Origin: a virus
Length of the DNA: 39,692 bases
Strand: one strand, 5' to 3'
Virus record (IMG/VR): IMGVR_UViG_3300042289_000044
Location: 1-39,692 of that record
Shown here: piece by piece, positions 29,010 through 38,101 of the stretch
Numbering within the stretch: position 1 is the stretch's first letter
Layout of the letters: every line of letters starts with the position of its first letter
The notes under the pieces: generated by a model
What the model saw: only the letters and a program-made list of their open reading frames with translations
The model's database searches: none
What the model was told of the DNA's origin: nothing
Position numbers and translations under genes: made by a program

Positions 29010-29660
29010 TTAGATCACCTGTGTCCGTACCTGCCCACTGCGGTATGCGTCCTGGCGATTTTTCCCATCACCCAGGTTCTTCAGCAGCGTCAATGACTGC
29101 ACGTACTGCTTGTCCATCTCGGCCACGATGTCAGGCTCTTGCTTCATGAACCGAGCAGCTTCGACCATGACTGCATTGAACAGCACGCTGTCAAAATTGT
29201 CGCTCAGCCATGTGTTGGTCGCCGTGACAATGCTTTCCGGGTAGTAGAAGTAGTGAAGCTCCGCCGTCAAATTTGCGCTTGGTGTAGGACCAAGAATCAA
29301 CGTCAACTCATCAGGGTTGGATGAATCAGGGCCGAACAACGCGTAGTACTTTGGAGTTCCGGTCGTGCTGGGGTTCGGAAACGCCGAGCGGATGAAGTTC
29401 ACATCCTTGTTCAGCAAGTACTCGTAATTCCCAGAACCATCAATGACCGCAAGGCTGAAGACCGATAGAAAGTCAACCGGAGCCGCAAGATACTGATTCC
29501 CGCTGGTCAACGTGCCCGTGACGTTCTTCCGAAGCGCAGGAAGTTGAACAGCGTTGTAGATGCGCTGCTCAGCCAACTCCGTCATCGTGGCGAAGTCTGC
29601 CGCTGAGAACGTATTTTCGGTGTAGTCGGAGACAGCAGCTTGAAGTTCTGTGTAATTCAT
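29010..29660 (-). CDS. Phage adaptor protein (SU10-adaptor-like)
   Basis: A 216-residue protein. An N-terminal helical part (MNYTELQAAVSDYTENTFSA, AEQRIYNAVQLPALRKN) is followed by a beta part (ASGNQYLAAPVDFLSVFSLA-type strands) and a C-terminal helix (FNAVMVEAARFMKQEPDIVA). This matches head-tail adaptor proteins that sit between portal and tail in short-tailed phages such as SU10. It would seal the portal and receive the nozzle. The 5' end has been disturbed: the homing endonuclease lies directly upstream and begins with a synonymous copy of the same first six codons. Confidence 0.75.
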   Translation of the reverse strand: MNYTELQAAVSDYTENTFSAADFATMTELAEQRIYNAVQLPALRKNVTGTLTSGNQYLAAPVDFLSVFSLAVIDGSGNYEYLLNKDVNFIRSAFPNPSTTGTPKYYALFGPDSSNPDELTLILGPTPSANLTAELHYFYYPESIVTATNTWLSDNFDSVLFNAVMVEAARFMKQEPDIVAEMDKQYVQSLTLLKNLGDGKNRQDAYRSGQVRTQVI

Positions 29661-29672
29661 TTACGCCACCGG
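29643..29672 (-). repeat. Degenerate direct repeat, copy B (adaptor start)
   Basis: Read on the minus strand, CCGGTGGCGTAAATGAATTA and the following CACAGAACTT spans the end of the endonuclease gene and the start of the adaptor gene. It matches copy A at 30220-30251 apart from a 3-base gap and mostly synonymous differences. Confidence 0.7.
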
Positions 29673-30236
29673 CTGCTTAAAACGCCCACGTACACCTTGA
29701 CGTTTGTTGTTTTCTGCCAACCATCGCCAAAACGTGTCGTATGAAACACCAATCTGCTTAGCCGCTTTATACCTTGGTACGCCCGTCAAAACAAGCTGCC
29801 ACGCTTTTTCGCAAAGCGGATCGTACTTATTTTTTCTGGCGTTGCTCCAGCGTTTTTTAGCCCCAGCGCTTAAATTTTGTAGTGCCAATTCAGTGTGCTT
29901 TTTGTTTGTCATGGCCCCAGGCATTGGGAGACATGAATCCTTTAACAGGTTGTAGTGCCCCATCGCTTTAATAGCGATGTCTTCATACATAGCGCGTTGC
30001 CCTACACTACACACCAACAAAGGCCTATAAACAAACACAGCCTCTTTGTGCTTATTCCAAGCCTGCTGCAAAAAAGGCGACGTGTGCTTATTTGCGCGCA
30101 ACGAATTTCTATGCGTGTTCCAACGTCTGCGTGGCTCAACAGTTGAGCCTACATACGAGTGCCCATTGGCAACATTTTCAATCTTGTAAATCAAGACTGA
30201 ATTTGTCAGCATGCGGGGCAACTCGGTGTAGTTCAT
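29661..30236 (-). CDS. GIY-YIG homing endonuclease (free-standing)
   Basis: A 191-residue nuclease. The GIY-YIG core is visible as LIYKIEN (15-21), SYVGST (27-32), Arg36-Arg38 with His42, and the likely catalytic Glu85 (MYEDIAIK). A NUMOD-type segment follows (LALQNLSAGAKKRW), then a helix-turn-helix-like end (GVPRYKAAKQIGVSYDTFWR) for DNA recognition. Such enzymes cut alleles lacking the insert and spread by repair. The gene is more AT-rich than its neighbours. Its first codons, MNYTEL, copy the start of the adaptor gene, so the native start may instead be Met9 (30212). Confidence 0.85.
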   Translation of the reverse strand: MNYTELPRMLTNSVLIYKIENVANGHSYVGSTVEPRRRWNTHRNSLRANKHTSPFLQQAWNKHKEAVFVYRPLLVCSVGQRAMYEDIAIKAMGHYNLLKDSCLPMPGAMTNKKHTELALQNLSAGAKKRWSNARKNKYDPLCEKAWQLVLTGVPRYKAAKQIGVSYDTFWRWLAENNKRQGVRGRFKQPVA

Positions 30237-30251
30237 GGTTTACGCCATCGG
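30220..30251 (-). repeat. Degenerate direct repeat, copy A (endonuclease start)
   Basis: Read on the minus strand, CCGATGGCGTAAACCATGAA and the following CTACACCGAGTT spans the end of the 63-residue basic protein gene and the start of the endonuclease. It is the partner of copy B at 29643-29672 and marks the likely insertion junction. Confidence 0.7.
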
Positions 30252-35452: not shown

Positions 35453-36670
35453 TCATGTCGTGATGGCCTGGAGATCGGCGTTAGCCAGCCTCCGAGGGTA
35501 GTAGGTGATGCGGCGGAGATAGCCGTTGAGGTAATCCGTGCCGCTGCTTCTACCAATGCGAAGCGTTGTCAGACCAGAAGGGACCACGCCAGCCAAATCT
35601 GTCAAAACAGAACCGCCGTTGATTGATGCCGCAAAGTTATTCGCAGCAAATGCACTAGCCATTTTGTTCACGTTCGTTTGCGTCACGCCGTTTGCACCAA
35701 GATCGTATTGGCCTGAACCGCTCGACACTGCGTTGGCGTATAGCCGTGAAGTGTCCGTTCTCCACAGATGAAGAATTGCATTGTTGGTTGAGCCATCATC
35801 TACCGCAACAATGCGAGGGAACAGGGCTGCTGTTTGCGCGGCGAGTTGCTGAGACTCGGTATACAACGTCCCCTCTGTCGCATTAAACCAAGGGCTCAGC
35901 GTATTCACTGAAGCCACATCGGCTGCACGGGTCAGGGCTGTGGTCGTGGTGGGGATGACGGAGGTGGCAAACGCGCCTTGTTCTAGCTGAGGCAGGCCGA
36001 TGCGCAGGGTGATGTCGATGGCTGCGCCGTTGGCCCATGCAAAAGCCACAACTGGCTGCACGTATGCAACTGATGCGTTGTTTGTGGTAAGCGTCGAAGC
36101 GAACCTAGAAAACGTGGCAGAAACGGAAGAAACAATGTTTGTTCCGGTCAGCGTTGACAAATATGTTGGCGTTATTGTGTATTGATTTGCGCTCAGGCTA
36201 ATTGAATTTATATTAGCTGTGCTTCCGCCGACAACAGATACCCAAGCACTATGCGCCCAAGATTGCCCATTGCTTGCGCTAACTATATTAGCGCCCTCAA
36301 GATTCAAAGACCCGTAGGTATTCGTTGTTGTCCCAGAAAAACGTAAGTCAATCCACGTAATTCCGTTTGAAGTGCCAGTGCCAACAATCTGACGAGTAAG
36401 GCCTGGAAAATCTAAAGACCAATTTGTTGGTGCAGCGCCACCAGAACCTATAACTCCCGCCACAGCACCCACCATCGTGTTGTTGCGGATGGAATTGGTG
36501 CGGGACTCCTCAATCAGCAAGCCCTGTGCAGCAAGCGTCGAAGGGCTGTAGTCGAAGCGGGGGGCGTTAACGGCTGCGCTGGTCAGCACACCAGCCGAGT
36601 TGAAGAACGTGGCCGTGCTGGCACGGGTGAAGGTGATGATGTCGCTGAAGTTTTTAGTGACGAGTGCCAT
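35453..36670 (-). CDS. Spike/fibre-like protein, mosaic paralog (copy 2)
   Basis: A 405-residue protein. Conserved blocks against the upstream gene are FTRASTATFFNSAGVLTSAA and LLIEESRTNSIRNNTMVGAV near the N-terminus, FATSVIPTTTTALTRAADVA and LSPWFNATEGTLYTE in the middle, and RRITYYPRRLANADLQAITT at the very end. The two intervals between these blocks are diverged and more AT-rich, as expected for exchangeable binding domains. The C-terminal half resembles concanavalin/LamG-type sugar-binding folds. It lacks the ~65-residue N-terminus of its paralog, which may be the attachment part. Likely a receptor-binding spike subunit. Confidence 0.65.
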   Translation of the reverse strand: MALVTKNFSDIITFTRASTATFFNSAGVLTSAAVNAPRFDYSPSTLAAQGLLIEESRTNSIRNNTMVGAVAGVIGSGGAAPTNWSLDFPGLTRQIVGTGTSNGITWIDLRFSGTTTNTYGSLNLEGANIVSASNGQSWAHSAWVSVVGGSTANINSISLSANQYTITPTYLSTLTGTNIVSSVSATFSRFASTLTTNNASVAYVQPVVAFAWANGAAIDITLRIGLPQLEQGAFATSVIPTTTTALTRAADVASVNTLSPWFNATEGTLYTESQQLAAQTAALFPRIVAVDDGSTNNAILHLWRTDTSRLYANAVSSGSGQYDLGANGVTQTNVNKMASAFAANNFAASINGGSVLTDLAGVVPSGLTTLRIGRSSGTDYLNGYLRRITYYPRRLANADLQAITT

Positions 36671-36682
36671 GATGTTTCCTCG

Positions 36683-38101
36683 TCAGGTGGTGATGGCCTG
36701 GAGATCAGCGTTACTGAGCCTCCGAGGGTAGTAGGTAAACCGCCTGAACCACCCATTCAGTGCAAAACCATCAGTACCCGTAAATCCAAGGTTTACATCT
36801 GTGATTGTGGGCATTGGGCTAAATGATGTTTGCGTGGCTACAGCCTGACCACCACCAGACAGAGCGCAGTCATTAACTTTTACACCTAAAGCCACTTTTA
36901 TTATTTGACCTTCTGTCAGTGCTGGTGATGGTGTTATGGCTATGTCTTTAGTCGCTCCGTCGCGCAACACAGCGACGTATTGATTGGTGCTGCTTTTTCT
37001 TATCCTGTAGCCAACGCCAGCAGCGCCTGAAAAAGTCACAGGGGTCTGCGTTACATTCAATCTGGCAGTGAACTCTGCAAACAACGTCCCCTCTGTCGCA
37101 TTAAACCAAGGCGACAACGTATTCATCAACGCCACATCAGCAGAGCGCGTGAGGGCTGTGGTCGTGGTGGGGATGACGGAGGTGGCAAACGCGCCGAGTT
37201 CTAGCTGGGGCAGGCCGATACGGAGGGTGATGTCTGCTGCCACACCGCCAGTAAATGCCACACTTATTGACTGCCTAACAAACGCGGTTGATGCGCCTGT
37301 TGTTATTGATCCGCTGCTGCGCTGTGTGCTTAAACCAGCAGTTGTCGGAGTAAAAGTGCTGGCCGTTGTTTGACGCAAATACGCAGGCAATGAACTATAT
37401 TCAAAAATCTCTTGAATTGTTGACGCAATACCAGTCAACGATCCTGCTTGCAATTTTACGTAAGTTGAAACAGCCCACGCTTGAGAAGCTGTTGCGGCAA
37501 CGGAATTATTCCCGTCAGTAAGAATTAACGCAGTTCCAGTTACAGTTGCTGTGCCAAACAGTCGAATATCAATGTATGTAACACCGCTTTCTGTGCCTGT
37601 CCCAACAATCTGCCTGCTAATTCCTGTCAAACCAGATAAGTCAATGTTCCAGTTTGTCGGCGGTGTCCCAGGCGTACCTGCTACCGCCCCAACCATCGTG
37701 TTGTTGCGGATGCTGTTCGTCCTCGACTCCTCAATCAGCAGCCCCTGAGCAGCAAGCGTCGAAGGGTTGAAGTCAAAACGAGCCTCGTTGATCGCAGCAG
37801 AGGTCAGCGTGCCCGCAGAGTTGAAGTACGTGGCCGTGCTGGCACGGGTGAACGTCACGATCTGAGCGAAGGTTTTTTGAGCTAGTCCAACGCCACTTTC
37901 CCAGACTGCATATTGCGCAGCAATCTGATACTGCGGGGTGATGAAGTTGGTGTTGAGCGTGTACGTGTCCGCTCCAGACAGATCCCCCGCCGTACCAATA
38001 AAAGACAGGTCCAGTGTTGCGCCGTCCTGATTGAACGGGTTGTTCCCCCCACCGCCACGCAACGGGTACGCAGGAAGCGCGAAGCCAAACCCGAACGACA
38101 T
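36683..38101 (-). CDS. Head-spike/fibre-like protein, mosaic paralog (copy 1)
   Basis: A 472-residue protein. Its unique N-terminus (MSFGFGFALPAYPLRGGGGN, LDLSFIGTAGDLSGADTYTL) precedes the same conserved blocks as its downstream paralog (FTRASTATYFNSAGTLTSAA, LTRSADVALMNTLSPWFNAT, RRFTYYPRRLSNADLQAITT). It follows a spike-base-like gene with a one-base TGATG overlap, the same order as the GhsA-GhsB head-spike pair of the Rhodobacter gene transfer agent. I infer a surface spike that recognises sugars through its LamG-like end. The tandem duplicate downstream suggests a second specificity. Confidence 0.65.
   Translation of the reverse strand: MSFGFGFALPAYPLRGGGGNNPFNQDGATLDLSFIGTAGDLSGADTYTLNTNFITPQYQIAAQYAVWESGVGLAQKTFAQIVTFTRASTATYFNSAGTLTSAAINEARFDFNPSTLAAQGLLIEESRTNSIRNNTMVGAVAGTPGTPPTNWNIDLSGLTGISRQIVGTGTESGVTYIDIRLFGTATVTGTALILTDGNNSVAATASQAWAVSTYVKLQAGSLTGIASTIQEIFEYSSLPAYLRQTTASTFTPTTAGLSTQRSSGSITTGASTAFVRQSISVAFTGGVAADITLRIGLPQLELGAFATSVIPTTTTALTRSADVALMNTLSPWFNATEGTLFAEFTARLNVTQTPVTFSGAAGVGYRIRKSSTNQYVAVLRDGATKDIAITPSPALTEGQIIKVALGVKVNDCALSGGGQAVATQTSFSPMPTITDVNLGFTGTDGFALNGWFRRFTYYPRRLSNADLQAITT

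Follow-up and report, generated by a model that had tools for sequence, protein, structure and literature searches.

Two adjacent minus-strand genes in the viral DNA analyzed here (a 39.7-kb stretch, which we call the window) open with the same residues, MNYTEL: a GIY-YIG homing endonuclease-like gene (HEN) and the SU10-type head-tail connector (adaptor) gene that follows it. Why should an endonuclease and an adaptor share a start, and which of the two starts is the original one? A preliminary description had proposed that the insertion of the endonuclease duplicated the gene boundary, so that the upstream copy (copy A) became the endonuclease start and a recoded downstream copy (copy B) restored the adaptor start. 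We think it likely that the adaptor gene was invaded at its 5' end by a free-standing GIY-YIG homing endonuclease, which brought a re-spelled substitute head along as part of a mobile unit. The features of the locus are listed in Table 1.

Table 1. Features at the adaptor-start locus, with the gene order on the minus strand given first.
Feature	Coordinates	Strand	Remarks
SU10-type adaptor-like gene	31696-30995	-	
Zinc-ribbon-like gene	30998-30606	-	
Small gene C	30599-30435	-	
Small basic gene D, 63 aa, C-terminus SRGPMA	30431-30240	-	left neighbour at filled and empty sites
GIY-YIG homing endonuclease-like gene (HEN), 191 aa	30236-29661	-	PF01541, 33.1 bits (cut-off 22.6)
Adaptor (SU10-type head-tail connector), 216 aa, start replaced	29660-29010	-	PF24175 SU10_adaptor, 75.4 bits
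GIY-YIG catalytic core match, HEN residues 15-54	30075-30194	-	PF01541
Helix-turn-helix-like C-terminal stretch, HEN residues 147-180	29697-29798	-	PF13384 HTH_23, E 8e-5
Copy A, CCGATGGCGTAAACCATGAACTACACCGAGTTG	30251-30219	-	D stop and native adaptor start ATGAACTACACCGAGTTG, now endonuclease ORF start
Copy B, CAGCCGGTGGCGTAAATGAATTACACAGAACTT	29675-29643	-	endonuclease stop and substitute adaptor start ATGAATTACACAGAACTT
GGTG Shine-Dalgarno-like element	29667-29670	-	6 nt before adaptor start, inside endonuclease 3' end (PVA-stop)
Re-spelled adaptor head, first ~36 nt	29625-29660	-	low identity to nearest relatives

Two PF24175 SU10-adaptor genes thus lie close together, flanking the insertion hotspot. 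In the same window, the adjacent tail proteins at 35453-36670 and 36683-38101 both match the same part of phrog_5939 and are apparent tandem paralogues.

Both MNYTEL junctions are present as had been described, and their codons do differ synonymously: over NYTEL, 5 of 15 nt differ between the copies, all without changing the protein (AAC/AAT, ACC/ACA, GAG/GAA, TTG/CTT). The best local alignment of A and B reads CCG(A/G)TGGCGTAA, a 3-nt gap (ACC) and ATGAA.TACAC.GA. Its score of 17 was reached by 0 of 20,000 Markov resamples of copy B. When both strands of the window were scanned with copy A, copy B was the top match and the next place scored 13, counted without copy A itself and without offsets overlapping A or B. 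Chance similarity of the two copies was ruled out by the resampling and the scan.

Searching IMG/VR gave many insert-free relatives, and 80 adaptor loci were kept; homologues of the window adaptor are up to 93% identical to it. In the insert-free contigs, the homologue of gene D lies immediately 5' of the adaptor and runs directly into it, with one start only. Such relatives had been expected to join the gene ending in GPMA straight to MNYTEL, and this is what we found, as M/VNYTEL. Copy A is identical at 35 of 36 nt to the empty-site junctions L013, L014, L020, L092, and L094, of which L092 and L094 derive from the same contigs as L020 and L013. Because of this match, copy A is the original adaptor start, now fused to the endonuclease ORF, with copy B as its substitute. 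The endonuclease ORF accordingly opens with the first six codons of the native adaptor (18 nt of native head). The proposals that copy A was turned into the endonuclease start and that copy B restores the adaptor start with recoded codons thus hold. An unrelated GIY-YIG homologue with an MNYTEL N-terminus, named beforehand as evidence to the contrary, was looked for, and none was seen among the homologues found. Further, HEN residues 1-7 (the MNYTEL leader) have a pLDDT below 50 in a mediocre AF2 model (mean pLDDT 70), which fits a captured adaptor leader. As a separate observation, loci L004, L006, L017, L031, L048, L054, and L055 have a conserved spacer of ~30 nt, TTTGGAAATTTTTGGCGGGAAGYCCAAAAA, between D and the adaptor GTG; judged by eye, it can form a hairpin.

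The HEN belongs to the GIY-YIG nuclease superfamily by its domain and its catalytic Tyr, Arg, Glu, and Asn motifs: Y17, Y28, G30, and R38 are invariant among six HENs of the adaptor-start site, and the Glu and Asn motifs (YED, HYN) can be read from its sequence. It also matches phrog_7168/314, homing endonuclease. Residues 147-180 are probably the DNA-binding part, as they are helical in the AF2 model (pLDDT ~83) and match HTH_23 at 22.8 bits, below the PF13384 cut-off of 24.6. Between carriers, dN/dS was 0.04-0.18 for the HEN and about 0.07-0.20 for the adaptor, so both genes are under purifying selection. We found no close relatives of the HEN or the adaptor in isolated-phage records and no HEN relative in the bacterial genomes searched; HEN relatives at other loci (L083-L085, L205-L208) showed no duplicated neighbour starts. 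A group I intron or intein was rejected, since an Rfam search of the window gave no intron match and a TAA separates the HEN and adaptor ORFs; the HEN is therefore neither intron- nor intein-borne.

Does the endonuclease travel together with the adaptor head? Six pairs of loci share an endonuclease, and in each identity is high over the endonuclease and on through at least the opening ~24 nt of the adaptor. Four pairs are bounded on both sides. In L046/L202, identity is 63-77% upstream, 95% over the endonuclease, 92-100% over adaptor nt 1-66, and 73-79% thereafter. The corresponding values are 70-71%, 96%, 86-96% (nt 1-126), and 71% in L288/L292; 52-60%, 89%, 96% (nt 1-24), and 60-80% in L260/L262; and 57-84%, 85%, 90-100% (nt 1-96), then 87% and 65%, in L255/L257. 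L300/L303 displays the right edge only (100% to adaptor nt 126, then 76%), and L051/L210 the left edge only (73-79% rising to 100%). Since the pairs share an endonuclease in different surroundings, endonuclease and adaptor head move as one block in these related phages, the replacement target-gene end forming a unit with its endonuclease. On the left, the block begins close to the D stop/adaptor start, which fits a break at about that point, and conversion extends rightward over varying lengths. For the window HEN, we found just two further contigs (L081, L082), with near-identical surroundings, so that its own movement is presumed by extension from the related types.

The distribution of carriers also speaks of mobility. 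In a quick tree of adaptor bodies, HEN carriers are scattered, requiring 7 changes for 7 rows, at least 5 of them forced by supported branches; with the empty and filled sites and the footprints in related carriers, this is the pattern of a mobile homing endonuclease. Across IMG/VR, we counted 35 distinct junctions (distinct sequences around the adaptor start) with GIY-YIG genes, comprising at least five GIY-YIG types with differing C-terminal parts. When loci were selected solely for the D-gene ending, roughly 6 of 120 had an endonuclease. In L282-L285, the endonuclease has suffered a large internal deletion and still precedes the same head type (TAA-ATC), the ORF in L282 (2501-2632) being down to 43 residues, as expected for a decaying element. 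Separately, the adaptor behind the full-length HEN of L287 (3121-3696) lacks about 30 codons just past its start, either by deletion or by assembly error. Swaps of the adaptor head do occur without HENs, which could suggest chance recombination at a gene boundary beside an inert HEN, with A and B alike merely as two adaptor-type starts. We regard this as very unlikely, given purifying selection on the HENs, the several HEN types inserted at the adaptor start, and the block footprints.

Where, then, does copy B come from? Its upstream half, GGTGGCGTAA, encodes PVA-stop and resembles the 3' ends of other endonucleases at the site, which commonly read RGGTGGCNTAA; its GGTG recurs with the same spacing in most TAA-adjacent HEN/adaptor junctions. 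From -12 to +9, copy B matches other HEN-bearing junctions at 18 of 21 nt without gaps, compared with at most 12 of 21 nt for 174 empty junctions. Owing to this 3'-end match and the GGTG, copy B probably belongs to the mobile unit rather than duplicating the local boundary. The repeat reported across the stop codon is thus real as an alignment, which spans both stop and start, whereas its upstream half, the likeness of SRGPMA to KQPVA, may not be a duplication. A tandem duplication of the local boundary at insertion, with copy B diverging later by selection against cleavage, would explain why B aligns well to A over the upstream stop and start once a gap is allowed. However, besides the better ungapped fit to HEN-bearing junctions and the common endonuclease ending, the head in L046/L202 accompanies its HEN into different backbones, and footprints of the unit recur in other endonuclease types at the site; we consider such a duplication improbable. 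With a gap, the upstream part of copy B matches the local D end nearly as well (11 of 12 nt), so the two may have an older common origin.

If the head is part of a mobile unit, is its spelling unusual? The first ~36 nt of the window adaptor are 44-72% identical to its nearest relatives and nt 37-150 mostly 80-93%; the head has been replaced, and it presumably arrived together with the endonuclease. Other carriers show this break more sharply: most codons differ between L204 and L020 up to ~nt 45, after which the two are nearly identical, and the difference extends to ~nt 63 in L046 vs L059, ~nt 30 in L051 vs L048, and ~nt 24 in L214 vs L169. The changes in carrier heads are mostly synonymous (in L046 vs L048, 15 of 21 codons differ synonymously and 3 in the amino acid). 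In close-family adaptors, the ATGAAYTAYNYAGAACTTC spelling occurs only beside HENs. Among carriers with a close body relative, a divergent head on a similar body was found in 6 of 6, compared with 8 of 57 empties (Fisher 4e-5; 2e-4 once near-duplicates were collapsed); this nearest-neighbour test was picked after seeing a matched-pair result, and its P value should be read accordingly. When carriers were compared with every empty pair of matched body identity, their head divergence was often not extreme and significance was weak, because empty heads themselves form several discrete alleles. With swapped heads in those 8 of 57 empties as well, head replacement is not exclusive to carriers. Insert-free adaptor starts whose heads diverge on otherwise close bodies (L001, L005, L006, L011, L012, L018, L074, and L169) may be resistance alleles or mark places where an endonuclease was lost.

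The re-spelling might also have a simpler reason. In plain co-conversion, the HEN would come from a lineage naturally so spelled, and the head would be a hitch-hiking flank with no selection for immunity; this view shares the movement of our preferred explanation and departs from it only in the reason for the re-spelling. The several discrete head alleles among empty sites are in its favour, as is the GCAGAACTTC-type spelling in the distant adaptor lineages L219 and L235. On the other hand, most carrier heads have no close match in empty phages over nt 4-45, where the best match of the window, L046, and L204 heads among the sampled empties is 0.62-0.71, vs a median of 0.90 for close-family empties against another empty; downstream, at nt 67-120, carriers match normally, and a replaced head accompanies several different HEN types. 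We hold plain co-conversion to be a possible but rather doubtful reason for the spelling.

We return to homing with a re-spelled head, for which we propose the following model, in which cutting, target position, immunity, and coupled translation are inferred. The mobile unit would consist of the endonuclease gene and, directly downstream, a synonymously re-spelled adaptor 5' end, whose ribosome-binding element would sit in the last codons of the endonuclease. The enzyme would cut an insert-free co-infecting phage at its native adaptor start. Repair templated by the carrier would then leave the endonuclease behind the recipient's own D gene and native start codon, with the donor's re-spelled head (copy B) placed in front of the recipient's adaptor body. 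The native start codon would thereby drive the endonuclease. Re-spelling would preserve the adaptor protein while removing the target, and that it destroys the cut site is plausible. Against this model stand the swapped heads of some insert-free phages and the often unremarkable head divergence of carriers in the matched-pair comparison. In addition, the free-standing HENs of T4 usually cleave at sites remote from their own insertion point (Edgell et al. 2010, PMC2988022).

The adaptor start codon itself shows a further pattern. Where the adaptor directly follows the endonuclease TAA, 15 of 16 distinct junctions have ATC (10), ATT (4), or ATA (1) as first codon; GTG or TTG never occurs, and the window ATG is the sole exception. 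These junctions (L243, L246, L248, L249, L260, L262, L265, L296, L297, L299, L300, and L304, and further L051, L213, and L214) carry GGTG just upstream, and ATC-started adaptors are under purifying selection (L051/L213, dN/dS 0.07). Possibly the start-codon G belongs to the enzyme's target, or weak initiation is tolerated through coupling, or the stop is read through, as ATC, ATT, and ATA are all Ile codons in the same frame. We tentatively speculate that natural home-and-rescue elements of many GIY-YIG types may have a hotspot at the adaptor start codon region across phages, with immunity gained by re-spelling the first codons, the start codon included (NTG to ATC/ATT/ATA). In that case the adaptor would be AUH-initiated through its coupling to the selfish gene, and the phage would depend on its parasite.

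The closest known system is the WHO element at FBA1 in Torulaspora/Lachancea yeasts, an endonuclease gene with a resistance-conferring FBA1 3' end (Coughlan et al. 2020, PMC7282813), of which the phage arrangement would be a mirrored form with another enzyme family. In both, an endonuclease comes with a replacement target-gene end, the target becomes a chimera, the displaced native end is left as a fragment, and the target gene end is unusually diverse (PMC7282813). In contrast, WHO elements occupy a yeast nuclear gene, use an intein/zinc-finger endonuclease, and bring a ~400-bp 3' end that precedes the endonuclease (PMC7282813), whereas the phage unit has a GIY-YIG enzyme of putative cleavage activity and a 5' end of ~20-70 nt downstream of it, and the native start is reused as the endonuclease start. 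Having GIY-YIG and HTH/NUMOD-like ends in place of an intein-like endonuclease fused to zinc fingers, the phage element would work like a WHO element without being a member of that group.

Mobile ORFs in fungal mitochondrial atp6, atp9, cox2, and nad3 (Glomus; Allomyces atp6) likewise carry a synonymously divergent duplicate gene end, in one case with a GIY-YIG endonuclease, and the native end persists as a remnant; there the end is C-terminal, whereas in the phage it is N-terminal and lies in an operon with a stop-start arrangement (Beaudet et al. 2013, PMC3630166). Tremella introns with N-terminal duplications also replace a native N-terminal gene piece by a foreign one through element mobility, but are intron-borne and mitochondrial, unlike the phage window with no intron signal (PMC7315562). 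T4-like seg genes (GIY-YIG) are free-standing between phage genes, with flank co-conversion and overlapping stop-start arrangements; their enzymes, in contrast, cut at distances of hundreds to thousands of bp from the genes that encode them, and a carried, re-spelled neighbour start is not described in the passages considered (PMC2988022). The synthetic home-and-rescue drives HomeR also home into an essential gene and supply a recoded rescue copy of it, but are engineered with Cas9 in flies, so that for a natural phage element they offer an analogy only (PMC7968924). In the open-licence literature, we found no phage description of an endonuclease with a replacement gene start; one may exist elsewhere.

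Our findings point to a strategy in phages that is known from yeast WHO elements and fungal mitochondria, in which a selfish endonuclease invades an essential gene and brings a re-spelled rescue piece. One junction holds empty alleles, several endonuclease types, decayed remnants, and swapped heads without an endonuclease. This variety of alleles makes invasion, immunity, resistance, and loss directly testable and bears on the evolution of gene drives, and the short re-spelled heads predict the cut position of each enzyme.
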